A stretch of DNA of 64,000 nucleotides, from assembly GCF_002980555.1 (NCBI RefSeq), contig NZ_PVBT01000002.1, forward strand, positions 62,001-126,000, written 5' to 3'. The notes under the pieces are model-generated. The model ran no database searches. It had not been told where the DNA came from and was given only the letters and a program-made list of their open reading frames with translations. Positions 1,213 to 30,728 of this stretch are shown here, piece by piece. How positions within the stretch are numbered: position 1 is the first letter of the stretch; each line of letters begins with the position of its first letter. A program made the position numbers and the translations under genes. The DNA is from Phyllobacterium myrsinacearum. GTDB taxonomy: Bacteria > Pseudomonadota > Alphaproteobacteria > Rhizobiales > Rhizobiaceae.

Positions 1213-4200
1213 ATGGGTGTAGAGTCAGTAAAGCTGCAAAAGACCAATATCAACGAACCCGGTACCTCTCTCAAGTGGCGCCAGATCGTTTCTGCCATTG
1301 AAAAAAAAGCACCGGACGAAGATACGCGAAAAAAGGCGGAGGCTCTCGGTATCGAGTGGACCCGACCGAATGGCGACAATCGTTCGGCCAAATACATCAT
1401 TGAGAATGATCCGATGTTACGTGACCTGATCGATCGGAAGGGCGGCGGCAAGGGGCGTCCTGATATTGACGCCATGAAGGATAATTTGAAGAAACTTGTC
1501 GGTGATTATGAGCATGATTCCGACGCTGCCTACAGGGCCAGCCAAGTTCTCGACCATATCGAGAAGTTCGATTCCGGCGGAAATCGCAATTCCGGCAAAG
1601 ATGTTGGAAATGGCAGGATCGACGGGATCACCGGTTCGGGAGAGGTAAGGCACGGAACGGAGGCCGGCCGTCTGAAAGATCTCGGCAAATATGGTTTCGA
1701 GAGCCTGAAGGGCGATTTAAAGAAAACCTCAGCCGAATGGGGAGACCCAAAAGCTCGGGAGCAAGCCGCGCGCCTTGGAATCAATTGGGTTCATTCGCAG
1801 GGCGATAAGCGTTCAGCCAGAGAGATCATAGATGATAGTCCCTTGCTGAAGAACCTGGGCAACCAGAGCGGCGTGAAAGACATGCTCAAGGAACGTGTCG
1901 GTGACTTTGATCGGGATGCCGATGCTGCGTACCGTGCGGTACAAGTGCTTGAACATATTGAAAAATATAACGAAAATGGAAAAAGTATTTCCGGTGGCGA
2001 TATCGGCAATGGTAAGATTGACGGCTTCACCAAAGGCGGGGAAGCCAAGCATGGGACGGAAGCCGGGCGTCTGCAGGATTTTGGCAAATATGGTTTCGAC
2101 AATCTGAAGGGAGAATTGCCGCGTCGTCCTGATCCGAAACATGACGAAGCGGCACGCAAGGAAGCCGAGGCGCTGGGTATCAAATGGGAGCGGCCGAAAG
2201 GTGACGAACGATCTGCCAAAGAGATTATTGATGACAACCCCCTGCTCAAGAATCTCGGCAATCAGGGTCACGTAAAGGACATGCTCAAGGAGCGTGTCGG
2301 TGATTTTGACCGGGATGCCGATGCTGCCTTTCGTGCGGCGCAGGTTCTCAGGCATATCGAGAAATTCGACGGCAACGGCAATATTCAGGACGGCAAGAAT
2401 GTCGGTAACAATAAAATCGATGGCTTTACCGGCGGCGACGAAGCCAAACATGGTACCGAGGCCGGCCGTCTTCAGGACTTTGGCAAGCAGGGCTTCAAGA
2501 ACCTGAAAGGAAACTTGGATGACGCTCCAGCAAAAAAGAAGGATGGATCGCTACATCGGGGTTCACCAGCAGACAAGGATACCAAATCACGCGGCATTGC
2601 CGATGAGGACAAGATGCGCAAGGAAGCCGAGGCGCTGGGCATCAAGTGGACTGTGCCCAACTATGACAAGCGTTCGGCCAGCGAGATCATCGATAATAGT
2701 CCGCTGCTCAAGAATTTAGGTAACCAGAGCGGCGTGAAGGACATGCTGAAGGATCGTGTCGGCGATTTTGAAAATGATCGCGATGCGGCCTACCGTGCGG
2801 TACAGGTGCTCGAGCGCATCGAAAAGTATGATGCGAACGGGAAAATGCAGTCCGGCGACCAGGTCGGTAATGGCAAGATTGATGGTTTCACCAAAAGTGG
2901 TGAAGCCAAGCATGGGACAGAGGCTGGCCGCCTTCAGGATTTCGGTAAATACGGTTTTTCAAGTCTCGCGGGCGTGGGTAATACCTATAACGACTACCTG
3001 AAAACGAACAAGAATGCCGACGACGCATCCAAAATAATCGCCAAGTATGGTTCCATCCTGTACGAAAATTTCGACGCCATCAAAGGCGCAACCGGTGCGA
3101 AGGACTCTCTGACGCTCAAGGATATTCAGAAATTCAAGGATGAAAACCCCAAGCTGATGAGCGACGATTTGAGAAAGGCGCTCGATTTCTGGACAAAACC
3201 AGGCAGCTTTGACATCCTCGAAACCAGCCATAACAAGCTTCGAAACGGCTCCGATGGACGTCTCTCCAGAAAGGACATATCGGACTGGCTGAAAAATGAC
3301 GCGCCCAAGGATGCAAAAGAGGCGATGGAATTTATCGTGCGCGCGGCTGACGGCAACGCTGTGGCGGGCGTGGACGTAAAGAAATTTGACGACGAGATTT
3401 TCAAGAATCCGGGAAAATACAGCGCCCAGGAAAAGGCAGCTGTGGTGCGCGATCTGCAGAAAGCATACGATCTGGTCGGCATGGGCAAGCAGGTTGGCAT
3501 GTGGGACAAGGACCATGTCAAGAAGAAGCTTAATGATCGCGCCGGTGTCGGCGGTGATCCTGCTGCCATTATGGCCGAGATCAAACAACGCATCGACACT
3601 CTGAAAAAGGACCCGGAGGTTGTAAAATTCCTGAACGAGACCGGTGAGAAAACCCTGAAGGATTTCGTCGGTAGCGACAAGGATCTGAAAAACGCGCTGA
3701 CGGGCATCTACGACAAGGACATCAAGTCAGGTGCTGCACTCGACAAGTCTTGGAAGCCCGGGGCCGGCCCGACCGAGAATCTTGCCAACTTCTTCCAGAC
3801 CGGAAAGATGTATCAGGCGGCGCTGGGACTTGATAATGCCAAGGCTTTGCAGGACGCAGTCAAGAACTCCAAGCACAATGGCGAGCTGCAGGATTTCTAT
3901 GAGAAAAAGATGGTCTCCGGCGATCGTTTCAAGGATCTTTTGAAAGACCACACACCCGAAGAAGCAATCAGCACGTTCAGCCTTGAGGTTGGGCTCTACA
4001 ACGCCGCGTTGGATCCCGATTTTACCGGCAAGCACGACAAGAAACTCAATGAGAATTTTACATCTATCGCCAAGGATGGTGCCTTCAACGGTGCAACTGC
4101 TCAGGACCTCCAGAAAGCATTCGGCATCAATGGCGGTAAGGATTTGGATGAAAGGAAGGTCAGGGAGATGATTGATGAAATCGGGAAAACCAATCCCGAG

Positions 4201-4992
4201 CTTCTCGTCAATCAGGACGGGACGAAAGCCAAACCGGACCAGATTCTGACCGCTTTCCGGGGGCAATGGGAAGCACTGCGACAGGGAACCAAGGGGGGTG
4301 GGGCTTACGGCTTGATCGATGCGAACAATTCCGCCAAGCGTCTTTTTGACAAAGGTATTCAGCATGGTGTGAGCGGACTATTGCTGGCTGGCATTACCAT
4401 AGCCAAAGGCATCGGCGGAAGTGGCCATCTGACGGACCGCAACAAAGTCGATATCGCGATTGGTTCATTCCAAACGGCCGCAATCCTTGCGGAAGGTGGC
4501 GTGAAGAACTACCGCGATTTTTTGAAGAAAGCGGGGTTCGACCCCAAGACAATCGGCGACCCCAAGAGCTTTAACGAGTTCTTGCAAAAGAATGCGAGCA
4601 GGTTTGAATTTGGTTTGAGAGGCGTGGGCGGAGGTCTGGCTGGGCTTGCGCTTGGAGCTTACAACATCTTTGATGGTGTGAAGGCGATCAGAAATGGTGA
4701 TGTGGCAACCGGTGCCGTGAATATTACAACAGGCTCTCTGGGTCTTCTCGGCGCATCGGCCGTCACGGTGGAAGGCGGAATGGGCGCGCTTGGTTATGTG
4801 GTTCCGCGCTTGATCCAGGGGCTAGGGGCCGGATTTGGCGTCGCGGGCGGAGTATTGAGCTTGGCGTCCACGTTCATCCTTACGGCGATCAATGAGAGCA
4901 AGGCTTCCTCGCTTCAAAATGACTATGCAGATCTTCTGGGAGATTATCTCAAGAAATATAACATTGATGGCAAACCTGGCGACAAGGCCTGA
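1213..4992 (+). CDS. nopX: NolX/HrpF-family type III translocator, 1259 aa
   Basis: A predicted T3SS-secreted translocator that would insert in the host membrane so effectors can pass. Seen: four tandem repeats of about 125 residues in the N-terminal half (from roughly residues 37, 177, 310 and 464). Each contains an ALGIxW start, an RSAxxII segment, and an EF-hand-like stretch ending NGKIDGFT followed by HGTEAGRLQDFGK. A NolX-like helical domain follows (about 625-692), and glycine-rich hydrophobic segments lie near residues 1051-1072, 1134-1155, 1167-1190 and 1202-1225. Known: HrpF of Xanthomonas and rhizobial NolX/NopX pair N-terminal repeats with C-terminal hydrophobic segments, but are usually much shorter. 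The ATG is preceded by AGGGGA. No signal peptide is seen, consistent with T3SS export. Family call is strong; pore formation is inferred. Confidence 0.85.
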   Translation: MGVESVKLQKTNINEPGTSLKWRQIVSAIEKKAPDEDTRKKAEALGIEWTRPNGDNRSAKYIIENDPMLRDLIDRKGGGKGRPDIDAMKDNLKKLVGDYEHDSDAAYRASQVLDHIEKFDSGGNRNSGKDVGNGRIDGITGSGEVRHGTEAGRLKDLGKYGFESLKGDLKKTSAEWGDPKAREQAARLGINWVHSQGDKRSAREIIDDSPLLKNLGNQSGVKDMLKERVGDFDRDADAAYRAVQVLEHIEKYNENGKSISGGDIGNGKIDGFTKGGEAKHGTEAGRLQDFGKYGFDNLKGELPRRPDPKHDEAARKEAEALGIKWERPKGDERSAKEIIDDNPLLKNLGNQGHVKDMLKERVGDFDRDADAAFRAAQVLRHIEKFDGNGNIQDGKNVGNNKIDGFTGGDEAKHGTEAGRLQDFGKQGFKNLKGNLDDAPAKKKDGSLHRGSPADKDTKSRGIADEDKMRKEAEALGIKWTVPNYDKRSASEIIDNSPLLKNLGNQSGVKDMLKDRVGDFENDRDAAYRAVQVLERIEKYDANGKMQSGDQVGNGKIDGFTKSGEAKHGTEAGRLQDFGKYGFSSLAGVGNTYNDYLKTNKNADDASKIIAKYGSILYENFDAIKGATGAKDSLTLKDIQKFKDENPKLMSDDLRKALDFWTKPGSFDILETSHNKLRNGSDGRLSRKDISDWLKNDAPKDAKEAMEFIVRAADGNAVAGVDVKKFDDEIFKNPGKYSAQEKAAVVRDLQKAYDLVGMGKQVGMWDKDHVKKKLNDRAGVGGDPAAIMAEIKQRIDTLKKDPEVVKFLNETGEKTLKDFVGSDKDLKNALTGIYDKDIKSGAALDKSWKPGAGPTENLANFFQTGKMYQAALGLDNAKALQDAVKNSKHNGELQDFYEKKMVSGDRFKDLLKDHTPEEAISTFSLEVGLYNAALDPDFTGKHDKKLNENFTSIAKDGAFNGATAQDLQKAFGINGGKDLDERKVREMIDEIGKTNPELLVNQDGTKAKPDQILTAFRGQWEALRQGTKGGGAYGLIDANNSAKRLFDKGIQHGVSGLLLAGITIAKGIGGSGHLTDRNKVDIAIGSFQTAAILAEGGVKNYRDFLKKAGFDPKTIGDPKSFNEFLQKNASRFEFGLRGVGGGLAGLALGAYNIFDGVKAIRNGDVATGAVNITTGSLGLLGASAVTVEGGMGALGYVVPRLIQGLGAGFGVAGGVLSLASTFILTAINESKASSLQNDYADLLGDYLKKYNIDGKPGDKA
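1315..2967 (+). repeat. Four tandem protein-coding repeats in the NolX/HrpF-like gene
   Basis: Four diverged units begin near 1321, 1741, 2140 and 2602. Units 2, 3 and 4 are close to each other (shared LLKNLGNQ, VKDMLK, RVGDF and KHGTEAGRLQDFGK blocks). Unit 1 is the most diverged, and a charged linker separates units 3 and 4. Each carries a D/N/G-rich EF-hand-like loop, suggesting calcium binding. Confidence 0.85.
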
Positions 4993-8369: not shown

Positions 8370-8397
8370 GTGTCGATCCTCCCGAGCGACACGCGAT

Positions 8398-10371: not shown

Positions 10372-10836
10372 ATGTCTGTGTCGGCATTGACCAATATTAA
10401 GACCAGTTCGGTTGTAGATCCGTCGAAGGCATTATTTGAGCGGAATCTGAATGCCGCAAAGGCAAGCGAGATTCTTACCGGTTTTCTGAAGAGCACAAAT
10501 AGGTCGGCAATCGATCTTGCCGGGCTCAAGCAGCTTGCCAACAATCCGCCACCCGGGACATCGCCCGAAGTGTCGGCCGCTGCGGACTACATGCTTAAAA
10601 ACCCCAAGGTTTATGAAGCAATCGAAACGCATGACGTCCCTGGAGCGGATGGGCTTTCTGGTGTTTGGAATTTCGAATGGGCTGCGAAGGGCGGGCTTGC
10701 CGGAAATCCTGTTGACGCTATTTCGTCCATGACAGCTGCTTTCGACAAGGCGATAGCCAAGTCGGCGGAAATTACAAATCTAACCACGCAAAAGAAGGTC
10801 GATCTGGATTCCGCAAAGCAGCGGCCAAACGCTTGA
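10372..10836 (+). CDS. NolX-type domain fused to a needle-like C-terminal tail, 154 aa
   Basis: The start at 10372 is chosen because the protein aligns from there and GGGA precedes it; a longer frame to 10315 is less likely. Residues 44-103 resemble the central domain of the NolX-like protein (its residues about 625-692): an AIDLAGLKQL...ETH...ADGLSG pattern ending in FEW versus SLTLKDIQKF...ETS...SDGRLS ending in SDW. Residues 123-154 match the tail of the 53-aa needle-like proteins at 26 of 32 positions, ending AKQRPNA in both. There is no signal peptide. The simplest reading is a secreted T3SS component that joins or caps the filament through its tail, with the NolX-like domain exposed. 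The tip role is inferred. Confidence 0.7.
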   Translation: MSVSALTNIKTSSVVDPSKALFERNLNAAKASEILTGFLKSTNRSAIDLAGLKQLANNPPPGTSPEVSAAADYMLKNPKVYEAIETHDVPGADGLSGVWNFEWAAKGGLAGNPVDAISSMTAAFDKAIAKSAEITNLTTQKKVDLDSAKQRPNA

Positions 10837-10899
10837 TTTGGGAATGTGATTGTTCTGGCGGACTGCTTCATCGTCTCTTGTGAAACAGTACCTTATATG

Positions 10900-12248: not shown

Positions 12249-12258
12249 AAATTCCGGA

Positions 12259-12420
12259 TTAAGCGTTTGGACGTTGCTTGGCAGCGTCGAGTTCGACTTT
12301 CTTCTCGGTCGTCAGCGCAGTGATCTCGGCTGATTTCTGGATCGCGTAGTCAAAGGCCTTCGACATGGCATCGATCGACGCGTCGGATGATTTCGGATCA
12401 ATTGGGGGCGTGGCAGCCAT
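12259..12420 (-). CDS. 53-aa needle/pilus-subunit-like T3SS protein, copy 1
   Basis: The ATG at 12420 is set by GAGGA 8-9 bases upstream; longer frames reading into the upstream region are artefacts. The protein is one short helical hairpin: a Pro/Ser-rich start (MAATPPIDPKSSD), then SIDAMSKAFDYAIQKSAEIT and a basic tail ending AKQRPNA. Small size, alpha-helical pattern, lack of Cys and signal peptide, and position beside the sctV operon fit an SctF/NopA-type filament subunit. In classical rhizobia nopA lies next to the y4yQ-rhcV-y4yS operon. I cannot prove homology by eye. Copy 2 at 30399 encodes an identical protein. The gene is too short and AT-moderate to be certain of its role, but real translation is well supported. 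Confidence 0.68.
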   Translation of the reverse strand: MAATPPIDPKSSDASIDAMSKAFDYAIQKSAEITALTTEKKVELDAAKQRPNA

Positions 12421-12585: not shown

Positions 12586-12588
12586 TCT

Positions 12589-13627: not shown

Positions 13628-13959
13628 CCCGGCTAAGCCAGGACAGCGCCGAGTTTCTTCATGGGCTTGGTTATATCTATTGCAAGGCCGGTCAACCGGA
13701 CCGCGGCATTGTCTTTCTGTTGCTGGCATCCAAGATCGCACCGCACGATACTGCAGTGTTGAATTCCCTGGCGACTGTCTTCGTGGAGACCCAAGCGGCC
13801 AATCGGGCGCTCGCTGCGATCGATAGGATTGAGGCGCTTGAAGGAGAGATTTCATCAAACCTGCAGCTTCTCAAAAGCCGGGCGTTGTGGATGAGGGGAG
13901 AGCATGATCGCGCTCGGCAAACCTTTCGTGACTATGTGAAGGGAAGAACCCCGTTATGA
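13624..13959 (+). CDS. TPR-containing T3SS chaperone-like protein (y4yS position)
   Basis: 111 aa from a GTG overlapping the previous stop, with a 4-bp overlap with sctV at the other end; translational coupling on both sides is likely. Residues 10-100 hold two to three TPR-like helix pairs (AEFLHGLGYIYCKAGQPDRG, then LNSLATVFVETQAANRALAA). TPR proteins of this size in T3SS operons (SctG/SycD types, y4yS in rhizobia) bind needle or translocator subunits in the cytosol. A partner among the small filament-like proteins or the NolX-like protein is plausible. Confidence 0.75.
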   Translation: MTRLSQDSAEFLHGLGYIYCKAGQPDRGIVFLLLASKIAPHDTAVLNSLATVFVETQAANRALAAIDRIEALEGEISSNLQLLKSRALWMRGEHDRARQTFRDYVKGRTPL

Positions 13960-16106
13960 CCATGTTGAACACGCTGGACCGAATGGCCCGGCTTGCATCA
14001 AAACGCACCGGTATCGTCATTGCGGCGCTAATGATGCTTGCGATTGTGATGTTGGTTATTCCTCTGCCAACATATCTCGTCGATGGGCTGATCGGAATGA
14101 ACATTGCATTCAGCGTGCTCATTCTGGTGGTGGCGTTTTACATTTCCCATCCGGTGGAACTCTCCGCTTTGCCATCGATTATTCTGCTCGGTACACTGTT
14201 TCGTCTTTCGCTTTCCATCACGACAACACGGCTTATTCTCCTTCAGGCGGACGCCGGACAGATTGTTTCGGCATTCGGTGATTTTGTGGTTGGTGGGGAA
14301 GTCGTTGTTGGGTTGGTCGTCTTCCTGATCATTACAATTGCCCAGTTTGTCGTCATTACAAAGGGGGCCGAACGGGTCGCGGAAGTCGGCGCCCGCTTTG
14401 CGCTGGATGCGATGCCAGGCAAGCAGATGAGCATCGACGGTGAAGCGCGCAGCGGCGAAATCGATCCGGCCGAGGCCAAACGCAGGCGACAAAATCTGGA
14501 GCGCGAGAGCCAGTTTTATGGTGCCATGGACGGTGCCATGAAATTCGTCAAAGGCGACGCAATTGCCGGACTCATCATCATTGTTATCAACCTCATTGGC
14601 GGCCTTTCAATTGGTTCGTTGCAACACGGCATGCCGTTTGGTGAAGCAGCGCACACTTATTCGCTCCTGACTGTCGGCGATGGTCTGATTTCCCAGATTC
14701 CTGCCTTGATGATGGCGGTTGCTGCCGGGACGGTTGTCACGCGTGTGACATCAGACAAGAATGAGGATCTTGGCTCAGAGATTATCGGACAATTGGGTTC
14801 CAGTTACCGGGCACTGGCCTTGGCCGCAGTCATCCTCTTCGGATTCGGCCTGGTTCCCGGCTTTCCGATGATCGTTTTCTGGACGCTGGCGGTTATTACC
14901 GGTGGTTTGGCCTACATTGCTTACAAGAGAACCACCGCTGCGCTGGTGGAGCGCTTGGACGCATCGCCTGATTCCGGCACGGCAATGCCCATAGGCAATA
15001 TCAATAAGCCGCAGACGATGCTGTCCAACACAAGTCCCGGACTATTGCCAGGCTCCCAGCGTTTGAATATCGCACTTGGATCGCATCTTGCAGCCACAAT
15101 TTCGATGCCGGATCTGCGCGAGGGTATCGAACAGGTCCGGACAAATCTCTTTGCAGATATCGGGGTTCGCATGCCGCCCATCGGCGTTCGTGCAGATCCC
15201 GGCCTGGGTGCCGATCAGTTTCGTATCGATTTTGAAGGCGTGCCGGTAACGGACGGTGCGATCGTTCTCAGCCAGTTTCTGGTCACCGACGAAACGGTGC
15301 ATCTCGATCTGATGTCAATTCCATATCACGTCCGCCCTGTCCTTATGGGGCAGCACAACGGCGTATGGGTGGAGAACAGTCATCGGGAGGCACTGGAGGA
15401 GGCCGGGATAAGATTTCATGAACCGACCGGTGTGTTGATGGATGTTCTACAGCGCGTGCTGCGTCGTTACATCGCTGATTTCATCGATGGGCAGGAGGTC
15501 AGGTTTCTGCTGACGCAGATTGAGAACGAACATGGTGATCTTGTGAAGGAAGCCGTGAGCGTGACCTCCGTACAGAAAATCTCGGAAGTTTTGCGGCGAC
15601 TTGTCGAGGAAGATGTTCCCGTTACAAATCTGCGCGTCATCCTGCAGGCGATCGTCGAGTGGGGACCACAGCTTCAGAACCCCCATACATTGGCGGAATA
15701 TGCACGGATAGGCTTGTCCAGACAGATTTGTCACCGGCATTCGGAATTGAACCGGGTTGTCTCCGTCTATCTTTTCACACGGCAAACCGAAGACGCGGTT
15801 CGCGCCAACATTCAGCAAGGACAGGCCGCTAACGCAATCGGCATTCCAGACGAGATTTCACGGCCTATCATCGACCAGTTGAGAGACAAACAGGACAGCA
15901 GCGATTCCGGAATTGTCCGGGCAGTACTCACAACAATGGATATTCGCCGGCCGATCCGAAATCTTCTGATGCGCAATGACATCAATCTGCCTGTCCTGTC
16001 CTATCAGGAAATTTCCCCGGAGTTCAGCATTCAGTCGCTCGGATATATTTCGTTGCCGGCATTCCATCCCACGCGGCAGATCGAAGTCGGGGGCGAAGGT
16101 GAGTAA
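13956..16106 (+). CDS. sctV: T3SS export gate protein SctV (RhcV/FlhA family)
   Basis: The nonameric inner-membrane export gate. 716 aa, normal for the family. Residues 15-330 hold the membrane helices and conserved FHIPEP-family blocks (VKGDAIAGLIIIVINLIGG, the MPGKQMSIDGEARSGEID loop, and SQIPALMMAVAAG). The large cytosolic domain (about 380-700) includes YHVRPVLMGQHNGVWVE and the LAEYARIGLSRQI block. ATG overlaps the upstream TPR stop (ATGA); the secretin start overlaps its own end. No defects seen. Confidence 0.97.
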   Translation: MTMLNTLDRMARLASKRTGIVIAALMMLAIVMLVIPLPTYLVDGLIGMNIAFSVLILVVAFYISHPVELSALPSIILLGTLFRLSLSITTTRLILLQADAGQIVSAFGDFVVGGEVVVGLVVFLIITIAQFVVITKGAERVAEVGARFALDAMPGKQMSIDGEARSGEIDPAEAKRRRQNLERESQFYGAMDGAMKFVKGDAIAGLIIIVINLIGGLSIGSLQHGMPFGEAAHTYSLLTVGDGLISQIPALMMAVAAGTVVTRVTSDKNEDLGSEIIGQLGSSYRALALAAVILFGFGLVPGFPMIVFWTLAVITGGLAYIAYKRTTAALVERLDASPDSGTAMPIGNINKPQTMLSNTSPGLLPGSQRLNIALGSHLAATISMPDLREGIEQVRTNLFADIGVRMPPIGVRADPGLGADQFRIDFEGVPVTDGAIVLSQFLVTDETVHLDLMSIPYHVRPVLMGQHNGVWVENSHREALEEAGIRFHEPTGVLMDVLQRVLRRYIADFIDGQEVRFLLTQIENEHGDLVKEAVSVTSVQKISEVLRRLVEEDVPVTNLRVILQAIVEWGPQLQNPHTLAEYARIGLSRQICHRHSELNRVVSVYLFTRQTEDAVRANIQQGQAANAIGIPDEISRPIIDQLRDKQDSSDSGIVRAVLTTMDIRRPIRNLLMRNDINLPVLSYQEISPEFSIQSLGYISLPAFHPTRQIEVGGEGE

Positions 16107-17514
16107 GCGCTCCGTTGAGTTCAATGACCCCCGACACCAAACTATGGTGGACCATTTCCTTATGTTCAAACATTCCCATACTGCACGGGCGCGCTTGTCT
16201 GTCGTGTTGCCCGAGTTGACGTTTCTCGCCATCCTTCTGATGGCAATGATCACATTTCTTCCCATGGCTTTAGCGCAGGTCAAAGTCGATGCGACGTCTG
16301 GCCAAGTTCTGAAACTGACCATGGGTCAAGGGCAGATTCTGCGGTTCGATCAACCCGTGGAATCTGTCTTTCTTGCCGATACGGCCATTGCTGACGTTCG
16401 TGTAGTCTCGCCTGGAGCTGTCTATATCTACGGCACCAAGGTTGGAAGTACCAATCTCATTGCCCTCAGTCCCGATCAAGGGACACGCGGGACCCTGCAA
16501 ATTCGTGTTGTCGGCAGCCCCATGGAGGCCCAGCAATCGGCAAAAGCGCTTCAGCCCACAACGACGGTCGATATTACCCTGTTTGGTGATCAGTTTGTGG
16601 GCAAGGGGCACACTAAAAATGTGGGCGAAGCCGTCGATACCAGTAATGTACTGAAGAGCTATTCGAAACCCGACAAGCCCGCATTGAACAACACGACGAT
16701 TTCTGGTCCCAACCAGGTCAATATCCGGGTTCGGTTCGCTGAAGTGGCACGCAACGAACTGTCCCGCTATGGACTTGATTGGAGTGCTTTCTTCAATGCC
16801 GGTTCGTTTTCCTTCGGTGTCGTCCGCACCGGTAATACCAGTAGTGAAGGCGGGGGCGGAACAGCCATTGGCGCGGTCGGAAAGAATGTCAACGTCAATG
16901 TTCTTCTTGATGCCTTGCAGTCCAACGGGATACTGACAATTCTTGCTGAACCCAATATTACAGCCGTGACGGGACAGACGGCCAGCTTCCTCGCAGGAGG
17001 CGAGATTCCGATTCCGGTTCCCGCCGGAAACCAGCAAATTGCGATCGAGTACAAGCAGTTTGGCGTGTCATTGCAATTCACTCCGACGCTGCTGCCAAAT
17101 GACCGGATTGCATTACAGGTCCGGCCGGAGGTCAGCAGTGTCTCGCAAGACAGTGTTGTTTCAATTAACGGGCTGGTCGTCCCTTCGCTGCGTGTCAGAC
17201 GTGCGGATACAACTGTTGAAGTGGGAAGCGGGCAGACATTTGCCATTGCCGGTCTATTCCAGAGACAGGAAACGCAATCCATCAGTAAAACGCCAATGAT
17301 AGGTGATGTGCCTATCCTTGGGGAGCTATTCAAGTCGAAGAGATTTCAGCGCAACGAAACCGAGCTGGTTATCCTGATAACACCATACCTTGTGACACCG
17401 ACCTCGTCGCGAAGCATGAAAACGCCGTTGGACAGCCCTTCCGGCACGACTGCCTCTCCCCGCAAAAAAGCAAGACAGACCATCAACAAGGAGTATGGCT
17501 TCTATGTTGAATAA
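16099..17514 (+). CDS. rhcC2: Outer-membrane secretin, Tad-pilus CpaC-like (RhcC2)
   Basis: Forms the outer-membrane ring. A GTG at 16099 overlapping the sctV stop is the preferred start (471 aa); ATG 16144 is the alternative. A signal anchor ends PMALAQ. An N-terminal pilus-secretin domain follows (LKLTMGQGQILRFDQPVESVFLADTAIADVRVVSP, split here as seen), with a GTKVGSTNLI strand and a full secretin C-domain ending VPILGELFKSKRFQRNETE, then VILITPYLV. This layout is that of CpaC/RcpA from Tad pili rather than of YscC. In rhizobia the T3SS secretin is split into RhcC1 and RhcC2; RhcC1 is at 28010. CpaD- and TadD-like genes follow directly. Confidence 0.9.
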   Translation: MSKRSVEFNDPRHQTMVDHFLMFKHSHTARARLSVVLPELTFLAILLMAMITFLPMALAQVKVDATSGQVLKLTMGQGQILRFDQPVESVFLADTAIADVRVVSPGAVYIYGTKVGSTNLIALSPDQGTRGTLQIRVVGSPMEAQQSAKALQPTTTVDITLFGDQFVGKGHTKNVGEAVDTSNVLKSYSKPDKPALNNTTISGPNQVNIRVRFAEVARNELSRYGLDWSAFFNAGSFSFGVVRTGNTSSEGGGGTAIGAVGKNVNVNVLLDALQSNGILTILAEPNITAVTGQTASFLAGGEIPIPVPAGNQQIAIEYKQFGVSLQFTPTLLPNDRIALQVRPEVSSVSQDSVVSINGLVVPSLRVRRADTTVEVGSGQTFAIAGLFQRQETQSISKTPMIGDVPILGELFKSKRFQRNETELVILITPYLVTPTSSRSMKTPLDSPSGTTASPRKKARQTINKEYGFYVE

Positions 17515-17539
17515 TTGTCCCTTCATGGCTGGAGGATCG

Positions 17540-17974
17540 ATGGCGCGACTGGTTTTGTTCGTTGGGTCTTTTGTACTTTTGGCAGGATGTGTTGGCAGTC
17601 AGCCACAACCTTATTCCCCCAATTACAGCTATCTCAGCATGAGGGCGGCGCCTGCGACGATGGGTCTTTCCAGACCCGGAGTAGTCCGCAAGGGGTATGA
17701 TCAGGATAAGCCCGCAGCAACAGTATTGGTACCCGATGCCTGTATCACCCCCGATACGGCAGATCAGCCGGTCTATTTACCCTCGGGTTGCTCAAACAAT
17801 CTCAATTTACAGTTGATGGTCGTCCGCAAGCAGGACCTGACGCAGGGGCACCAAATGGGCCCTGCCATGGCCGCTCCGGTTGCGCGTGCGGCGCAAGATT
17901 ATATGGACGGCGTTATGCCAGCCGGACGGAAGCAACAGCGCCTTGTTGAGCAATCCAATCGGTCTGTGCAGTGA
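17540..17974 (+). CDS. CpaD-like lipoprotein in the T3SS operon
   Basis: Start at 17540 (GGAGG just upstream) gives a clean lipoprotein signal, LVLFVGSFVLLAGC, with the lipidated Cys at 17. Upstream in-frame ATGs at 17495 and 17504 are possible. The 144-aa product contains DACIT, SGCSNNLNLQLMVVRKQDLT and a PVARAAQDYMDG segment. It matches the CpaD pattern in which a GC..NN..xM block is followed by a DL motif and a short Tyr/Gly end. CpaD is a Tad-pilus outer-membrane lipoprotein thought to help the CpaC secretin. Here it probably acts as pilotin or stabiliser for rhcC2. Confidence 0.72.
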   Translation: MARLVLFVGSFVLLAGCVGSQPQPYSPNYSYLSMRAAPATMGLSRPGVVRKGYDQDKPAATVLVPDACITPDTADQPVYLPSGCSNNLNLQLMVVRKQDLTQGHQMGPAMAAPVARAAQDYMDGVMPAGRKQQRLVEQSNRSVQ

Positions 17975-18008
17975 AGGCAACCATCCTGGCCAATCAAGAC
18001 AAGGAAAT

Positions 18009-18827
18009 ATGAGCATGCGCGTGAGACATTTTCGTAAATGTACCGGCCTATGTCTGTTGTTTGTCGCTGCAGCAACCAGTGCTTGTGTGAGTACGGCCGA
18101 ACAGCAGGCGGCGCAAAAGCCGGTAAATGAACAGTCCAGATTTTTGCGGGTTGCCAGGGACTTGGATGCAAAAGGCGAAAGCGGAACGGCCCTTGCGCTT
18201 TATGAGCGGGCTGCGCAGATGTCGGGGGCGGATGCAACCATTCAGGTCAAACTTGGCAACGCCAGACTGAAAGCCGGAGATACTGACGGGGCCGAAAAGG
18301 CGTTCCGGTCGGCATTGCAGATCAATCCGCAAGATACCACCGCGTTGTTGGGTTTGGGAACGCTTCAGCTGCAGCGTGGTGATCCGGCAGCCGCCGCCAG
18401 AACACTTGCCCCTGCCGCGGAGGCCCTGAACGCCGTATCGGCTTACAACAAACTTGGAACGGCGTTGGTTCTCAGTGGCAATGCGGCGGCCGCTGAGCGT
18501 GCGTTCACAAAGGCACTGACCCTCCAGCCCGGCAATCTCGATACAAAGACCAATCTTGCTCTGGCCCAAGCGCTCTCAAACAAGCTGCCGGATGCATCCG
18601 CCGGCATGAACAGCGTCGTGGCATCGCCGCTCGCTGAAAAGCGCCATTTCGTCAACTATATGATTATCCTCAGCATGTCGGGTGACTTGGCGCGTGCCCG
18701 GGCAATTGCTGTGCCGGACATGACCGAAAGCCAGAAGAGCCAGATTTTGGCAAAAGCTTCAAAACTGCATTCCATTCAAGATCCAACAAAGCGCGCGCAG
18801 GCTATTGGCCTGCTTGCATCCGCCTAA
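18009..18827 (+). CDS. TadD-like TPR lipoprotein in the T3SS operon
   Basis: ATG at 18009 with AAGGA upstream; 272 aa. Lipobox TSAC with Cys26, so an outer- or inner-membrane-anchored periplasmic protein. Residues 45-200 hold about four TPR units (SGTALALYERAAQMSGADAT, the AEKAFRSALQINPQD unit, and the AERAFTKALTLQPGN unit). This is the architecture of TadD, which accompanies CpaC/CpaD in Tad loci. With its two upstream neighbours it makes a three-gene Tad-like outer-membrane module. Likely an assembly factor for the secretin. Confidence 0.8.
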   Translation: MSMRVRHFRKCTGLCLLFVAAATSACVSTAEQQAAQKPVNEQSRFLRVARDLDAKGESGTALALYERAAQMSGADATIQVKLGNARLKAGDTDGAEKAFRSALQINPQDTTALLGLGTLQLQRGDPAAAARTLAPAAEALNAVSAYNKLGTALVLSGNAAAAERAFTKALTLQPGNLDTKTNLALAQALSNKLPDASAGMNSVVASPLAEKRHFVNYMIILSMSGDLARARAIAVPDMTESQKSQILAKASKLHSIQDPTKRAQAIGLLASA

Positions 18828-18842
18828 GTCAGGTTAAGCAGT

Positions 18843-19883
18843 GTGAGCCAGACCAGCGAAGAAAAAACACTACCCGCGTCAGACAAGAAGATCGAGGATG
18901 CGCGAAAGAAAGGCCAGGTCCTGCACAGTGCCGACATGGTCTCGGGGGTGGTCATCCTATCCTGCACCATTTTTCTTGCGTATATAGCCCCGGTCCTGAG
19001 GCAAAAGATCGGCGTCTTGCTCGAAGAGGCTTCGCACATTTACGAACGGCCTTTTGCTGATGTCTGGTACCGCTTGAGCACAATCGCGGTTCAAGCTCTG
19101 TTGACCGCAACTTTGCCGATTCTCATTCTTACAATTTTTGCGATTCTCCTGACGAACCTCGCCATAACCCGGGGACTTGTTTTCTCGGCAAAACCCATCG
19201 AGCCGGATTTCAACAGGATCAATCCGGCAAGCGGGCTGAAACGGATTTTCTCGCTTAAAAGCGTTGTGGAATTTGCGAAGGCGTTATTCAAGATCGCCGT
19301 TGTTGCTGCTGCTTTTGCCATTGTCTTCCGCGGTGGACTGAAAGCGCTCTTTGAATCGCCGTCCTGCGGCAGCCAGTGCATGTGGGCAACCTTCCTTGCC
19401 ATGTTCAAACCATTGGCGGTTATCGCCGTTGGCGCCTTTCTGGTCCTTGGCTTCTGCGACATCTTCCTGCAGCGCTGGTTGTTTCTGCGCGATATGCGCA
19501 TGACCAAGACTGAGAATAAACGTGAGCAAAAGGATATGGAAGGCGATCCGCTCATCCGGCAGGAACGTCAGCGGCAGCGCCGAAGCCGGGGAGACGGAAA
19601 AACCGGCCTTAAAAATGCGGTTCTTCTCTTTTTTGCGCCGGGGGACGGAGTTGTCGGTATCCGCTATGTCAGAGGGGAAACACCCGTACCCATCGTGGTT
19701 TGTCGTGCCTCGGGCATAGATGCTGTCCAGATGAACCAGCAAGCGCAGGAACTTGGTATCCCGGTCACAGTCGATGCGGATTTGACCAGCAGGCTTTTGC
19801 AGGCATCCACAGTCGGCAATCCCATTCCCGAGCGGATATTTCAGTCCGTTGCCAATGCCCTGGTTGCTGCGGGATTGATCTGA
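18843..19883 (+). CDS. sctU: T3SS export switch protein SctU (RhcU/FlhB family) with altered autocleavage motif
   Basis: GTG start, 346 aa. Four N-terminal membrane segments (about residues 30-50, 80-105, 140-160, 185-210) include the family block INPASGLKRIFSLKSVVEF, followed by the cytosolic linker with KREQKDMEGDP. In the C-terminal domain the strand that normally contains Asn-Pro-Thr-His reads FFAPGDGVVGIRY, with Ala265-Pro-Gly-Asp268 at the NPTH place. The rest of the domain is intact (TPVPIVVCRASG, then AQELGIPV). Known: the Asn of NPTH drives self-cleavage needed for substrate switching. This protein would not cleave there. It lies on the opposite strand from sctRST, unlike classical rhizobial loci. 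Confidence 0.93.
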   Translation: MSQTSEEKTLPASDKKIEDARKKGQVLHSADMVSGVVILSCTIFLAYIAPVLRQKIGVLLEEASHIYERPFADVWYRLSTIAVQALLTATLPILILTIFAILLTNLAITRGLVFSAKPIEPDFNRINPASGLKRIFSLKSVVEFAKALFKIAVVAAAFAIVFRGGLKALFESPSCGSQCMWATFLAMFKPLAVIAVGAFLVLGFCDIFLQRWLFLRDMRMTKTENKREQKDMEGDPLIRQERQRQRRSRGDGKTGLKNAVLLFFAPGDGVVGIRYVRGETPVPIVVCRASGIDAVQMNQQAQELGIPVTVDADLTSRLLQASTVGNPIPERIFQSVANALVAAGLI

Positions 19884-19944
19884 TTATGCCGCCTATTCCC
19901 ACATCATTTGATACGGTCAAATCCAAAATGGAGGTATCCTGTCC

Positions 19945-20601
19945 ATGCGAATGAAGCACTGCATTCACTTGGTTGCCATCGCACTGATGGAACTGTGTCT
20001 TGGCGCCGTGAATACCCGTGCACAAGTCCAGGAACCATCCCCTCCAATATTTGACACAAAAACCCACAAAGTCTGGATCCAACCTGGATATATTGATTTC
20101 CTGATGGGCGCCGAGGCCTCTCCTTTGCACCGTGAGAACGGGCAGTACAAGCCTGGCCAATCTGCAATACCGCCCAAGATGGTGGCTTATGCAACAAGCG
20201 AAAAACCCGGAACCATCGTCATTGATACTGCAAACCATGCGCTCTACCTCGTTGGTTCAAACGGAAAAGCACTGCGTTATTCCGTTGGTGTTGGACGAGA
20301 GCGCTATGGCTGGAGCGGCACCGAACGCATCTCCCGCAAACGCCAATGGCCCGACTGGCGTCCCCCGGCGGCTATGCGGGACCGCCGGCCGGATCTTCCA
20401 GCTCATATGGTTGGCGGGCCTGCAAATCCGCTTGGTGCACGCGCGCTTTATCTTGGTCATACGCTTTTTCGCATCCATGGTTCAAATGAACCCGAAACAG
20501 TTGGCCAGGACTCTTCCTCAGGCTGCTTCCGAATGACCAATCGAGACATCATCGATCTCTATCAACGGGTCCGCGTCGGAACGAAAGTTGTGGTTCGGTG
20601 A
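19945..20601 (+). CDS. L,D-transpeptidase (YkuD/ErfK domain), exported
   Basis: 218 aa, ATG with GGAGG 10 bases upstream; signal peptide ending NTRAQ. The YkuD domain covers about residues 92-218: IVIDTANHALYLV at its start, RYSVGVGR, and the catalytic HGSNEP...SSGCFRMTN pattern with Cys194. Such enzymes form 3-3 peptidoglycan crosslinks or attach proteins to peptidoglycan. Last gene of the sctV operon, 61 bp after sctU, so co-expressed with the injectisome and possibly used to strengthen or anchor the wall around it. Confidence 0.9.
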   Translation: MRMKHCIHLVAIALMELCLGAVNTRAQVQEPSPPIFDTKTHKVWIQPGYIDFLMGAEASPLHRENGQYKPGQSAIPPKMVAYATSEKPGTIVIDTANHALYLVGSNGKALRYSVGVGRERYGWSGTERISRKRQWPDWRPPAAMRDRRPDLPAHMVGGPANPLGARALYLGHTLFRIHGSNEPETVGQDSSSGCFRMTNRDIIDLYQRVRVGTKVVVR

Positions 20602-20639
20602 ATTGGCCGTTTATGTTCCGGATTTGCTTGTTGGAATAG

Positions 20640-20660
20640 ATACATCAAGCGGAGATGTAT
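20640..20660. terminator. Small hairpin between converging T3SS operons
   Basis: ATACATC and GATGTAT form a 7-bp stem with a 7-nt loop in the 162-bp gap between the transpeptidase and sctT stop codons. No T-run. Confidence 0.3.
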
Positions 20661-20763
20661 GCCGTTATATCGAGGCAGCCCAATATCAACATTCGGAAAT
20701 TGGATGTCTTTCTCCATTGAATCGAAAACGGCTGATCCAGGCAATCACTGCCCATCATCCTGT

Positions 20764-21630
20764 CTATTGCTGTCCGAAAACATCTTGGTCTGACTTTGAA
20801 TCGACTGCCTTGGCAGGGCTGTTGGCAACGAGCGAGTGCATGATATCAAACGTGCCGCGAAGGTCTTTCAGCTCAGACACCATGTAGGGCACGAGATAGG
20901 AGATGTAGAACACTATCAGCAGCGAGAAGAGCATGTTTTTAATTGCAAGGGAAAGGTCAAAAACATGCAGTTGTGGTGCCATACGGGATATGTAGGCCAG
21001 CATTATATCGGCAAGCAGCAAGGCTATGACCAGCGGCGCGATCAGCAAAACTGCGATCTGCATGATACGGTCAAGAACGCCAAGCAGGGCGAGAGCAGCC
21101 TGTTGACCAAGGACAGGCAGAAACTCGGCGGCAGGCCATAATTGGTAGCTCTTGTAAAATCCATCGACCAGCAACAGAAAGCCGCCTGACATAAAGAAGA
21201 GTGCAAGCAGTGCAAACACGAAAAGCGTGGCGGTGATACTGGCCTCACCGACCTGAAGCGGATCAACGAGTTGTGCCGAAGTGGATCCGCGTTGCAGATC
21301 CACAAGGTCGCCGGCAACTTCTGCGCCCCAGAATGGAATACCAAATGCTATTCCGATGATGATGCCGACGATTGCTTCCTTTATAAGCAGCCCCGCAATC
21401 ACAAGACTACTCAATTGACCTTCAAGCAGGAGTGAGTTGAGCACACCCGGTATGGCGGGAATGCAAATGGCAACAGCGACCCCTGAACGGATCAATCCCG
21501 TCAAACCCAAGCGAATGAAGGCCGGGGTGACAACAATCATACCGAGAGCACGCGCAACCGCGATGGCTGCTGCAGTGATGAAAGGATAGGCGAGGTCAAG
21601 CAATGAGGTCGTGGTTGTAGCGGCGTCCAA
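20764..21630 (-). CDS. sctT: T3SS export apparatus protein SctT (RhcT/FliR family)
   Basis: Membrane part of the export gate entry portal. 288 aa; the start appears to be TTG (21630) with GGGA 8 bases before it. Seen: six to seven hydrophobic segments and the family blocks GLTGLIRSGVAVAI, then WGAEVAGDLVDLQRGS, and a C-terminal VSELKDLRGTF. Last gene of the minus-strand core operon; in classical rhizobia rhcU follows, but here it is on the other strand. No defects seen. Confidence 0.94.
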   Translation of the reverse strand: MDAATTTTSLLDLAYPFITAAAIAVARALGMIVVTPAFIRLGLTGLIRSGVAVAICIPAIPGVLNSLLLEGQLSSLVIAGLLIKEAIVGIIIGIAFGIPFWGAEVAGDLVDLQRGSTSAQLVDPLQVGEASITATLFVFALLALFFMSGGFLLLVDGFYKSYQLWPAAEFLPVLGQQAALALLGVLDRIMQIAVLLIAPLVIALLLADIMLAYISRMAPQLHVFDLSLAIKNMLFSLLIVFYISYLVPYMVSELKDLRGTFDIMHSLVANSPAKAVDSKSDQDVFGQQ

Positions 21631-21643
21631 AGCTCGTTTCCCA

Positions 21644-21913
21644 TTACCGTGTCATCGCTGGAAAGACATCCAGTACATGACTTGCTAGATTTGCCACCTG
21701 AATTGCAAGCGCTGGTCCCAGAACAATGAGAGTAAGCATCACGGCAACGAGCTTTACCGCTTGGGGCAGGGTCTGGTCCTGAATCTGCGTCAGTGCCTGA
21801 ATGAGACCAACACTGATGCCAACAGCGATTGCCACAGCCAATGCAGGAGCGGAAGCCAGCAATACCGTAAGCAGTGCATTCTGCATTTGCGCAAGAAAAG
21901 AGGCTTGCCCCAT
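21644..21913 (-). CDS. sctS: T3SS export apparatus protein SctS (RhcS/FliQ family)
   Basis: 89 aa with two long hydrophobic helices around the family block VGLIQALTQIQDQTLP. It starts 2 bp after the sctR stop. SctS coils with SctR and SctT to form the inner-membrane export channel. Full length. Confidence 0.95.
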   Translation of the reverse strand: MGQASFLAQMQNALLTVLLASAPALAVAIAVGISVGLIQALTQIQDQTLPQAVKLVAVMLTLIVLGPALAIQVANLASHVLDVFPAMTR

Positions 21914-21915
21914 GA

Positions 21916-22575
21916 CTAGCTTCCCCCATAGCTGAGAATGAGGCCATGCATCAGGCGTGACCAGCCATTCACAGCAACGAACAGAAAGATCTTGAGTGGT
22001 ATGGAGATGAGCGTTGGCGACACCATCATCATGCCCATCGCCATCAGCACGTTGGAAACAATCAGATCTACAACCAGAAAGGGCAGATAGAGCAGGAAGC
22101 CGATCTCAAATGCGCGTGTCAGTTCCGAACTTACAAAGGCGGGGATCAGGACGAGCAGGCTGTCGGGAGCGAGATCGGCACGGGCTTCCGGCGACCAGAC
22201 ATTTTCCGTTGCCTTGATGAAAAACTGCCGTTCATTCTCGTTGGTGAATTTCAACAGATGCGCCTGGAGCGGCGGTCGAAGAGCTGCGGCTGCGGATTTT
22301 ATGCTGTCGAGAGATTGCAGATCGACCTGCTGTACTTCAAGAACACGATACATCTCACCGACCAACGGCGTTGTCACATACACGGTCAGAATGAGCGCAA
22401 TGCCATAAAGTACCAGATTGGGAGGCGATTGCTGGATGCCAAGCGCATTCCTGATCAAGAAGAGGACAATCGAAATCTTCAGAAAGCCGGTCATGGTCAC
22501 GACAGCAAGCGGAATCAAACCGATGGTCGAGACAATAATGATAATCGGAATAAGGTTTGTCTGGTACTCAGCCAT
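21916..22575 (-). CDS. sctR: T3SS export apparatus protein SctR (RhcR/FliP family)
   Basis: 219 aa, four membrane helices. Seen: LIRNALGIQQSPPNLVLYGI, then LIPAFVSSELTRAFEIGFL and the closing MGMMMVSPTLISIPLKIFLF block, all diagnostic. The start overlaps the sctQ stop by 8 bp. Forms the export channel core with SctS and SctT. Confidence 0.97.
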   Translation of the reverse strand: MAEYQTNLIPIIIIVSTIGLIPLAVVTMTGFLKISIVLFLIRNALGIQQSPPNLVLYGIALILTVYVTTPLVGEMYRVLEVQQVDLQSLDSIKSAAAALRPPLQAHLLKFTNENERQFFIKATENVWSPEARADLAPDSLLVLIPAFVSSELTRAFEIGFLLYLPFLVVDLIVSNVLMAMGMMMVSPTLISIPLKIFLFVAVNGWSRLMHGLILSYGGS

Positions 22576-23641
22576 TGTTGGACAGCCGCACGACCCTTAC
22601 ACCGAGACCCGCACCGATTTTAACCAGCTCGCCGGTTCCTATCAGGCGTCCGTTCGCCAGAATGTTCACTGGGTTCGTAATACTGGGCGCGATTGGCACA
22701 GTGCTGCCTTCGCCAAGTTTGCGGATATCGGTTAGCGGCAATTCGCAGCGGCCGATCTCAAACACAAGCTGGATTGGCAGCCGGTCAAAATCGTCAAACT
22801 GGCCGCGTTTGTCATCGGCAATTAAACTGGGTTCTGATGTCATCGAATGATCCGAATATTGATTGAGGGGTTGCCAGTCGCTGCTAAGCATGGGCCCGTC
22901 ATCCGTTGGGACGGTTGATGCAGCGTAATAATTGGATAGAACGGCGAACGTATCAGCTTCCGTGGTCTGTTGACGGAGGATCACATCGCCCGGCCGCAGG
23001 TCTCGTAGTTCCGAAACTGTCAGTTCTTGCGTCCCGATGCAGAGTTGGACGAGAAAAGTAACAGAAGTGAGAAAACCGGCATCAGTTCGGGGCACAGACC
23101 GATTGATGGCGCCGCCTAGAATGCGAGCTGCAGGCTGGCACAGGTGTAACTGCGCATTGCGCGGCACGTCATCAAAACGAATAATCCAGGGCAGGGACAC
23201 ATCGCAGGTTGAATGGGTCGCTTGGCCGCCAAAGCGAATGGGCAATTCAATGGATTGCTCAAGTATGGCCAGTTGTTCCGTCAACAAATACTCGAATAGA
23301 ATGCTTTGTTTGCGGGATGGGAGGCTAAGCGTCGTTCTGCTTGCCGTCAGCATTTGCAGCAATCGTCCCGCCGTGTCTGCAGACAAAACCAGTTTGCAGT
23401 GCCAGGCTCCGATCGATACCGGTATCTCCACTGGATCGGTAAGAGGCGATGCAGTTTGGGTGAGTTTCAATTCCACTGAAAGACCAGCCACATTCACTTG
23501 GAATGGCGCGCGGTTTCCGTGGAACAAATTCATGATATCAACGTGATCGGAATCAATGGCAGGTAGCCACGACAAATCAGCCGTTGAGTCAGGCATCGGG
23601 TTGTCAGGCGGAAACGCTTCGCAGCGAACGGGCCTATTCAT
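22568..23641 (-). CDS. sctQ: T3SS cytoplasmic ring (sorting platform) protein SctQ
   Basis: 357 aa. The C-terminal ~75 residues form a SPOA (FliN-like) domain: DRLPIQLVFEIGRCELPLTDIRK, shown in part, then NILANGRLIGTGELVKIG and a final VRVVRLSNNG. A first, more diverged SPOA-like region is near 200-260. Builds the cytosolic platform with SctK and SctL. ATGA overlap with sctO upstream and an 8-bp overlap with sctR downstream. Confidence 0.92.
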   Translation of the reverse strand: MNRPVRCEAFPPDNPMPDSTADLSWLPAIDSDHVDIMNLFHGNRAPFQVNVAGLSVELKLTQTASPLTDPVEIPVSIGAWHCKLVLSADTAGRLLQMLTASRTTLSLPSRKQSILFEYLLTEQLAILEQSIELPIRFGGQATHSTCDVSLPWIIRFDDVPRNAQLHLCQPAARILGGAINRSVPRTDAGFLTSVTFLVQLCIGTQELTVSELRDLRPGDVILRQQTTEADTFAVLSNYYAASTVPTDDGPMLSSDWQPLNQYSDHSMTSEPSLIADDKRGQFDDFDRLPIQLVFEIGRCELPLTDIRKLGEGSTVPIAPSITNPVNILANGRLIGTGELVKIGAGLGVRVVRLSNNG

Positions 23642-24135
23642 ACTCGACGTCCCTTGAGAATCATAATCGAAGAATGCACTTGATCCTCATCATCGAGTTC
23701 GCTCAGCAACCCTTGACACATCGCTTTGCGTGATGACTGCCGCTCCATGAGGATTTTCAACTTATCGTGCTGGCGAAGTTTGGCGAGATGTTCGGCCGCT
23801 CTTGTGTCCTTTCTCATGGTCTCGTTAACAAGACGAAGCTTTGCCTCCTCTTCTTGTTGCTTGAGATGGATGGCCTGATAGTTCAGTGTGGAAAGTGCGT
23901 CTCGATATCGGTCGAGTTCCCGGCATTTGACCGGGCCTTTTGACATGTGTTCATACATGACGGATTCATGCTGAAGCCGGCTTGCCTCATGCTCGGCAGT
24001 TTGACCGGACGCAGCCTCAACAGCCTTTGACGCTGCGTCGTGAATGTGCTGCTGGCGGATTGAAGCCTCCTCGGCAATTTTCATGCGAAGTTTGCGCAAC
24101 TCCATCAGTTTTTGCAGGTTGCGTTGCTGGTTCAT
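23638..24135 (-). CDS. sctO: T3SS stalk protein SctO (Y4yJ/FliJ-like)
   Basis: 165 aa, almost entirely charged coiled coil (MELRKLRMKIAEEASIRQQH, then repeated Glu/Gln/Arg heptads). Such proteins insert into the SctN hexamer and link it to SctV. Assignment rests on coiled-coil character and on position between sctN and sctQ, with ATGA overlaps on both sides, as for y4yJ in rhizobia. Confidence 0.86.
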   Translation of the reverse strand: MNQQRNLQKLMELRKLRMKIAEEASIRQQHIHDAASKAVEAASGQTAEHEASRLQHESVMYEHMSKGPVKCRELDRYRDALSTLNYQAIHLKQQEEEAKLRLVNETMRKDTRAAEHLAKLRQHDKLKILMERQSSRKAMCQGLLSELDDEDQVHSSIMILKGRRV

Positions 24136-25484: not shown

Positions 25485-26080
25485 GCCGCTCCAGTAGATC
25501 TGGATGGTGAGAGAAGGGCTTGCCTGATCGCGGATAATTGCATCTCAAGGCTTGCATCGACCAATGCAATGGCATTTGAAAGCACGCATTGGGTTCCATT
25601 CAAATGCGGATCCGGCACAACGGTAAGCGTGAGCGATGGATTGGTGTTTTCGGACTTGATACGCCGTGCGACGTCTTCAGCAATATCAGGGGCTACGGCT
25701 ATTGTAATATCCCGCTCGCGCTGGAATGACTGCAACGCATGGTGCGCTAGCCTTGTGACCAGCTCGGCGTCCCCAAATTTGCCCAGAACCTTTATGATGA
25801 TGGACAGGCTAAGGTCGACGAACTGCTGATCCAGGGATGCCACATAGTCGTTGATACGAGCGGTTGTCGTGGTCAGCAAAGCACCTGCCTGTTGAGCGCC
25901 TTGTTGAAAGCCGGCTTCATAACCCTCCTTTCGGCCTGCTTCGCGGATTTCGTGTATCCGCTCCATTTCCGCTTGGGCATCTGCCCTTGCACCTGCAATG
26001 AACGCATATGCGTTGATCCACGGCTGAACGTCCTTTTCGCGAATGATTTTTACGCCGGGCATGGGGGGAAGGTCAGTCAT
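25481..26080 (-). CDS. sctL: T3SS ATPase stator SctL (RhcL/NolV)
   Basis: 199 aa. Helical N-terminal half with the FliH/YscL-type EGYEAGFQQGAQQAG segment; compact C-terminal domain with LTRLAHHALQSFQRERDITI and a DPHLNGTQCVL block. Connects SctN to the SctQ platform. Starts 15 bp after sctK and overlaps sctN by 4 bp. Order J-K-L-N matches nolT-nolU-nolV-rhcN. Confidence 0.93.
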   Translation of the reverse strand: MTDLPPMPGVKIIREKDVQPWINAYAFIAGARADAQAEMERIHEIREAGRKEGYEAGFQQGAQQAGALLTTTTARINDYVASLDQQFVDLSLSIIIKVLGKFGDAELVTRLAHHALQSFQRERDITIAVAPDIAEDVARRIKSENTNPSLTLTVVPDPHLNGTQCVLSNAIALVDASLEMQLSAIRQALLSPSRSTGAA

Positions 26081-26095
26081 GGAACGCCATCATGT

Positions 26096-27537: not shown

Positions 27538-27544
27538 CTGCTGC

Positions 27545-27958: not shown

Positions 27959-28009
27959 GACGATTTTCTCCGTTTCAATATTTGGACGCGATGAATGCCA
28001 CATCAGTCT

Positions 28010-28717: not shown

Positions 28718-28860
28718 GTGAGCCGCTCCCCCAAAGAATATTGGAATCCAATCAATGGCGTCGTTGCCGTAACTCTCTGCGCGGGTATAGGCGCTACTGC
28801 CGGAACCGCTGCCATAGCTCAACTCTCTGCACAGCCTGAGGTCATTGGGAACAACACATT

Positions 28861-30725: not shown

Positions 30726-30728
30726 TCT

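Follow-up and report, generated by a model that had tools for sequence, protein, structure and literature searches.

A natural fusion of a probable needle-subunit module and a NolX-like domain near a rhizobial-type type III secretion system

How the pilus is linked to the translocon in plant-associated type III secretion systems (T3SSs) is the question addressed by the two small genes described here. The window, i.e. the whole stretch of 64,000 nt of Phyllobacterium myrsinacearum that was analysed, contains a gene whose product joins a NolX/HrpK1-like domain to a tail closely resembling a 53-aa protein encoded in the same window. T3SS needles and NolX/HrpK1 proteins were already known; what appears to be new is the natural fusion of a needle-subunit module and a NolX-type domain. 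A preliminary description of this DNA, made from the sequence alone, knew of no T3SS tip built in this way. No fusion of this kind was found described in the titles and abstract starts of the open-licence literature searched.

The fusion gene and the surrounding secretion genes

The reading frame of the fusion starts with the ATG at 10372 and its stop codon ends at 10836 (translation of the window). The motif AGGGA is present at 10360-10364, 7 nt 5' of the ATG, and in the sequence alignment the homologues align starting at Met1. The gene and its parts are the following:

10372..10836, + strand: fusion gene, encoding the 154-aa, needle-tailed NolX-type domain protein (open reading frame, tail match and homologues)
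10372..10431, + strand: residues 1-20, a variable, Ser/Thr-rich N-terminus that looks like a possible type III export signal
10432..10707, + strand: residues 21-112, a helical NolX/HrpK1-like domain, on profile comparisons and a structure model
10717..10833, + strand: residues 116-154, the needle-subunit tail, 28/39 identical to the 53-aa protein and predicted to lie in one long helix (113-149)

The fusion had no Pfam match above the cut-off, no NCBIfam match and no match among PDB sequences. In particular, no profile of the LcrV/IpaD-type tip-protein families matched it in Pfam or NCBIfam, and PF05819 and PF16937 were matched neither by the window's fusion nor by five aligned fusions (Pfam). 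A search for phages also gave no match.

The other features relevant to the fusion are listed below:

1213..4992, + strand: giant protein of 1259 aa with an HrpK1-type domain, a putative translocator (Pfam PF16937, 81.3 bits against a cut-off of 30.9)
2977..3474, + strand: PF16937 region of the giant (residues 589-754), compared with the fusion domain
12259..12420, - strand: 53-aa needle candidate (SctF), copy 1, a stand-alone open reading frame
13956..30336: T3SS core, with sctV, split sctC, sctU, sctT-S-R-Q-O-N-L-K-J-I and sctD; sctT-to-sctI and sctD on the - strand (Pfam/NCBIfam matches to FHIPEP, secretin and SctC)
16030-17514, + strand: rhcC2, half of the split sctC
27545..28003, - strand: SctI-like inner-rod candidate, named by its place; its C-terminus resembles the needle in profile comparison
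28010-28822, - strand: rhcC1, half of the split sctC
29428-30336, - strand: sctD, directly downstream of needle copy 2
30399..30560, - strand: 53-aa needle candidate (SctF), copy 2, a stand-alone open reading frame just upstream of sctD

The core components other than those with FHIPEP, secretin and SctC matches carry presumptive names, given from gene order and recall. Relatives of the needle candidate are present on the 2.43-Mb replicon NC_012586.1 of NGR234, which we take to be pNGR234b, the home of its T3SS-II, while none was found for pNGR234a among the matches listed. The split secretin (rhcC1/rhcC2), sctO, sctD and two small open reading frames upstream of sctV are all found here, as in the gene description of Rhc subgroup II that served as our yardstick (PMC3574062), and the host system is a rhizobial-type T3SS, probably of the Rhc-II group.

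A second HrpK1-type giant (open frame of 1005 aa) is encoded in the same genome at 51087-51590 of contig C2, ~11 kb left of the window. Elsewhere, the same kind of T3SS is accompanied by other giants of 1,194 aa (10191-13775 of its locus), 1,523 aa (3959-8530) and 1,078 aa (378-3614). A LysM domain is present in the 1,078-aa protein; the 1,194- and 1,523-aa proteins had no Pfam match above the cut-off and no phmmer match to the window's giant. Inside the T3SS region we also found a lytic transglycosylase (SLT; 11306-12073, - strand) and, by eye, an L,D-transpeptidase-like protein (19945-20601, + strand); the two may help the apparatus to cross the cell wall. Adjoining the T3SS, at 31308-35648 (+ strand), is a putative type I secretion set, recognised by eye: a glycine-rich repeat protein of the RTX type and, after it, an ABC transporter and an HlyD-like adaptor.

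No promoter common to the fusion, needle and giant genes emerged in the two Phyllobacterium genomes compared: the upstream regions share only a Shine-Dalgarno-like 10-mer, present in 4/6 of them (at most 3 in ten shuffles).

The stand-alone needle candidate and the tail of the fusion

Among the loci with flanks, sctD lies 61-284 nt downstream of the stand-alone gene, on the same strand, in 27/28 genomes or records; in a further 7/7, assessed by position, an sctD match lies ~0.2-0.3 kb downstream. In total, the gene is just upstream of sctD in 34/35 genomes or records. The exception is Phyllobacterium YR531, whose needle gene has the giant and the fusion close by, as does the extra copy in the window. 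In this assembly sctD was not found, and sctV (76%) and sctJ (78%) are present on other contigs, so that an assembly gap is the likely reason for its absence.

The place just upstream of sctD is that of nopA, which is known in Rhc subgroup I. On pNGR234a, a 71-aa open reading frame directly upstream of the gene adjoining sctV is taken here for nopA and its downstream gene for y4yQ/sctD, names that we presume from place and length. The Rhc-I gene order is described as nopC-nopA-rhcD-rhcV, nopA being the major pilus subunit (PMC3973906). On this basis of gene place, the 53-aa protein is a strong candidate for the needle subunit (SctF) of the rhizobial-type T3SS, and probably is that subunit. Unlike NopA/SctF, it matches no known needle family (Pfam, NCBIfam), and the fusion adds a domain of ~92 residues to a tail closely similar to the stand-alone protein. 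Among PDB sequences, the needle candidate gave five weak matches, with no needle among them. Table 1 of PMC3574062 has no entry under SctF or SctI for Rhc subgroup II, nor any under SctF for subgroup I; the Rhc-II and Rhc-III systems of several sinorhizobia are described as being without nopA, nopB and nopC (PMC3973906).

The needle profile also resembles the C-terminus of the SctI-like protein, with a score of 23.9 against at most 19.7 in 200 column shuffles and a probability of only 22%; for the fusion tail alone, score and probability were 19.3 and 9%.

The two 53-aa genes of the window are identical. Each belongs to a stretch of ~370 bp that is present twice, with the copies differing at 2 positions (12259-12620 and 30399-30750, one at either end of the T3SS core), and that takes in upstream sequence and a terminator-like palindrome after the stop. 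This duplication appears to be a recent doubling of needle gene dose. Furthermore, seven divergent needle-like genes, whose products end in ARPNN/SRPNN or KQRPQ, seem to extend the needle family; 6/7 are just upstream of sctD.

The tail of the fusion (residues 116-154) and the 53-aa protein are identical at 28/39 positions (72%, E 2e-17, BLASTP). The preliminary description had counted 26 positions shared with the 53-aa proteins in the final 32 residues, a count reproduced on the translations, and had read the tail as a module similar to a needle subunit. This reading holds: among the matches listed, the tail is present only in the fusion and in short stand-alone genes, nearly all directly upstream of sctD. 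The tail is thus unlikely to be a generic export signal. This candidate was rejected because no other kind of protein among the matches listed carries the tail, though a longer in-frame start of the stand-alone gene is possible in a few loci.

Then, we evaluated how the tail varies among lineages. Across seven lineages, few in number and each with one hand-picked representative (39 columns; neither the remaining carriers nor the broken copy entered the test), tail identity correlated with needle identity at r 0.81 and with domain identity at r 0.44. The partial correlations were 0.76 for tail and needle and 0.12 for tail and domain, and the value of 0.76 was reached by 6 of 5,040 permutations; tails and needles both follow host kinship. 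A tail that was an old appendage would vary with its attached domain, whereas the observed one follows the needle. In a second comparison, on 12 hand-picked carriers in six lineages, pairing each tail with the needle of its own lineage gave the best total of 720 pairings, with one tie because two lineages have identical needles. Carrier by carrier, the own needle ranked first (ties included) in 7/12 and third or fourth in 5/12, in which the tail matches the needle of another genome better, by 1 to 2 residues.

Packing of the tail against the needle would lead to such co-variation, which could come about by selection for that packing, by gene conversion or by repeated fusion. We infer from these sequence comparisons that the fusion may co-assemble with the 53-aa needle: its C-terminal 39-residue helix would pack like, and against, the needle subunit, as the tail identity and the co-variation suggest.

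Identity, pairing and co-variation fit equally well a decorated filament subunit, co-polymerised at low frequency along the shaft and displaying its domain outwards, where it would serve adhesion, stiffness or spacing. Known needles have their N-terminus on the outer face, and the shaft would therefore tolerate a domain placed there; in the alignment the domain precedes a tail that keeps the helix and the free C-terminus of the needle. The NolX-like domain, however, points to the translocon end, and we consider this arrangement rather unlikely. A secreted effector or harpin-like protein, with a needle tail borrowed for chaperone binding or early export, appears improbable: while it would agree with the Ser/Thr-rich N-terminus and with a fusion gene often unlinked to the T3SS cluster, no known effector domain was found in the fusion (Pfam, NCBIfam), no protein of another kind bears the tail among the matches listed, and the tail varies with the needle.

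The N-terminal domain

A profile of 18 fusions, compared with seven rhizobial NolX/NopX proteins, aligned to three NolX repeats with scores of 41.5, 34.8 and 30.8 (probabilities of 81, 52 and 27%), and a fourth alignment scored 19.6. The best score was reached by 0/100 column shuffles (column shuffling, the control also in the SctI and HrpK1 comparisons, exaggerates the contrast); the best of 100 column shuffles scored 32.7 and 23.2, and the reversed alignment 11.3. The likeness of the domain to NolX is above chance and short of certain homology. When the fusion domain was compared with the giants' HrpK1 domain, the local score was 17.5 (reached in 3/200 column shuffles) and the global score 14.6 (0/200).

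The preliminary description had likened residues 44-103 to the central domain of the window's giant, on the agreement of a few landmark positions. The likeness is present but statistically weak: ET, DG and W do line up in the BLASTP alignment, at ~12 bits (E ~30) and beside higher-scoring chance alignments. In the profile comparison only residues ~45-88, the part up to ET, keep the register with the giant that had been indicated, and the global profile alignment leaves DG and W out of register.

Two AlphaFold2 models, built separately, presented the same order of elements with nearly the same spacing, at middling confidence (mean pLDDT of 67 for the fusion and 65 for the HrpK1 domain, the latter model resting on 2 sequences). 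The fusion domain is predicted to have a helix at 17-41, a strand at 47-48, helices at 49-57, 65-76 and 78-88, a strand at 98-99 and a helix at 102-105; the HrpK1 domain has helices at 17-33 and 35-42, a strand at 47-48, helices at 50-59, 66-75, 80-85 and 88-93, a strand at 99-100 and a helix at 101-110. In a fold search against the PDB, neither model had a significant match among solved structures. Profile and structure comparison, proposed in the preliminary description as a check, returned NolX repeats and an HrpK1-like layout, but no significant PDB fold match. In general, the domain resembles the giant HrpK1-type protein weakly in sequence and similarly in predicted layout.

The putative translocators NopX/NolX, HrpF and PopF (PF05819) and HrpK1 (PF16937) have a helical repeat domain, which the domain of the fusion resembles. 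The fusion differs from NolX/HrpK1 proteins in its length of 154 aa with one such domain, in the lack of a Pfam match and in the needle tail, which a tail profile search did not find on the NolX and HrpK1 proteins compared. A NolX-type domain fragment without needle tail (E ~2e-17, profile) was observed on a plasmid of Paraburkholderia sabiae (4938-5255 of the locus), between insertion sequences in an IS-rich stretch.

Distribution of the fusion and its proposed role

The intact fusion was found in 19 distinct carriers: 16 genomes (including YR531), Rhodobacter, Cereibacter and a Halomonas plasmid. The preliminary description had suggested looking for the same fusion beside T3SS genes elsewhere, and it is indeed present in other genera, in some adjoining such genes. 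Identity to the window's fusion is 65% in Phyllobacterium YR531, 51% in Rhodobacter xinxiangensis and Cereibacter flavus, and 57% in the Halomonas plasmid. The carriers are not independent, and some are close kin: the Halomonas plasmid and genome G872 have the same fusion, and Rhodobacter and Cereibacter the same tail. By sample, the fusion was found in 2/297 genomes of the window's family, in 4/398 of the phylum sample, in 2/148 of the family of G585 and in 1/337 of the class-wide sample, the window's own; the family of G345 contained 12 intact fusions and a broken one in 221 genomes. There is overlap among these samples, and the genome of the window is itself part of several.

The surroundings vary. 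In YR531 the needle, the giant and the fusion lie within ~6 kb, and no sct gene was found in the 20 kb examined around the fusion. The gene order in Halomonas is giant, sctU, fusion; in Rhodobacter and Cereibacter the fusion abuts sctT, and in several other genomes it sits at a distance from the needle and sctD or on a different contig. In the plasmid record of Halomonas sp. PA16-9 (NZ_CP040452.1, 854972-855873) sctU and sctD are each in two pieces, owing to decay or sequencing errors; in its relative G872, sctU is in one piece.

The fusion is well conserved. Indeed, 39/154 positions are invariant among 18 fusion sequences, and dN/dS is <=0.13 in both domain and tail in 5/6 pairs, those with estimable dS (the remaining pair, window-YR531, is saturated at synonymous sites). 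An accidental fusion without function is disfavoured by this conservation and seems barely credible: one genome, G811 (family of G345), does carry a broken fusion gene, with the stand-alone needle present beside sctD, but 19 carriers, from both Alpha- and Gammaproteobacteria, have kept the fusion whole and dN/dS is low.

A separate stand-alone needle gene is present in 19/19 intact fusion carriers, and 14 genomes have a clear needle without a fusion match. The constant presence of the needle gene is coherent with a cap or length-control factor, i.e. a non-extendable needle subunit that ends growth or triggers the substrate switch. This reading is of interest because an hrpP/yscP-like gene is described as absent from all Rhc T3SS subgroups (PMC3574062). 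As the needle occurs without the fusion in those 14 genomes, any cap role would be optional; such a role leaves the NolX-like domain unexplained, and we assign it a low probability.

A Pfam HrpK1 protein was found in 5/18 fusion carriers searched, against 4/16 genomes or records without the fusion; HrpK1 carriage does not track fusion carriage. Proteins of PF16937 or PF05819 were found in only 6/18 carriers searched.

We propose, with a confidence that we would set halfway, that the fusion is a second, domain-bearing needle subunit of the rhizobial-type T3SS, perhaps a tip or adaptor. The Ser/Thr-rich start (S+T of 46% in residues 2-21 against 17% elsewhere, mean of 18 fusions) would direct its export by the T3SS. 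In the least certain step, the fusion would join the filament at its distal end as tip or adaptor, where the small helical NolX/HrpK1-type domain would be held outwards from the filament end. The domain could then link the needle to the large NolX/HrpK1-like secreted proteins, or, where needle and translocon meet, take the place of one of these proteins' domains. Tip position and contact with a NolX/HrpK1-type translocon are a guess that could fall either way. The preliminary description had imagined a tip or cap docking by its subunit-like tail and presenting a translocator-like domain. This is supported in part, the tail as a needle module and the domain as NolX-like by profile, but decoration of the shaft or a cap would leave the same traces, and HrpK1 carriage is not tied to the fusion. 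Decoration along the shaft and a growth-ending cap are the main rivals to the tip.

A common role with known components can be proposed: the tip proteins LcrV/PcrV/IpaD/SipD and the tip filaments EspA/Bsp22 likewise join the needle end and the translocon. Canonical tips imitate the needle by coiled coils, whereas the fusion has no family match to LcrV/IpaD-type tips and, as a natural protein, is like the needle at the level of sequence identity. PrgI and SipD have been fused artificially to solve or model the tip structure (PMC3150277). A natural needle-domain fusion is thus a plausible answer to the same joining problem. Flagellar hook-associated proteins, which form filament ends, have a packing module in common with the filament subunit; machine and module are different, and the likeness is an analogy only.

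More generally, paralogy of the needle gene may build the needle end: a duplicate subunit with a translocon-type domain and a near-identical locking helix, matched by co-variation or gene conversion, would form the joint to a NolX/HrpK1-type translocon. We advance this tentatively, as a possibility slightly short of an even chance. For Rhc systems without an assigned SctF, a needle candidate is now proposed, with a natural needle-domain fusion alongside it in 19 carriers, and these two small genes of soil and plant-associated bacteria make the needle-tip-translocon joint accessible to tests.
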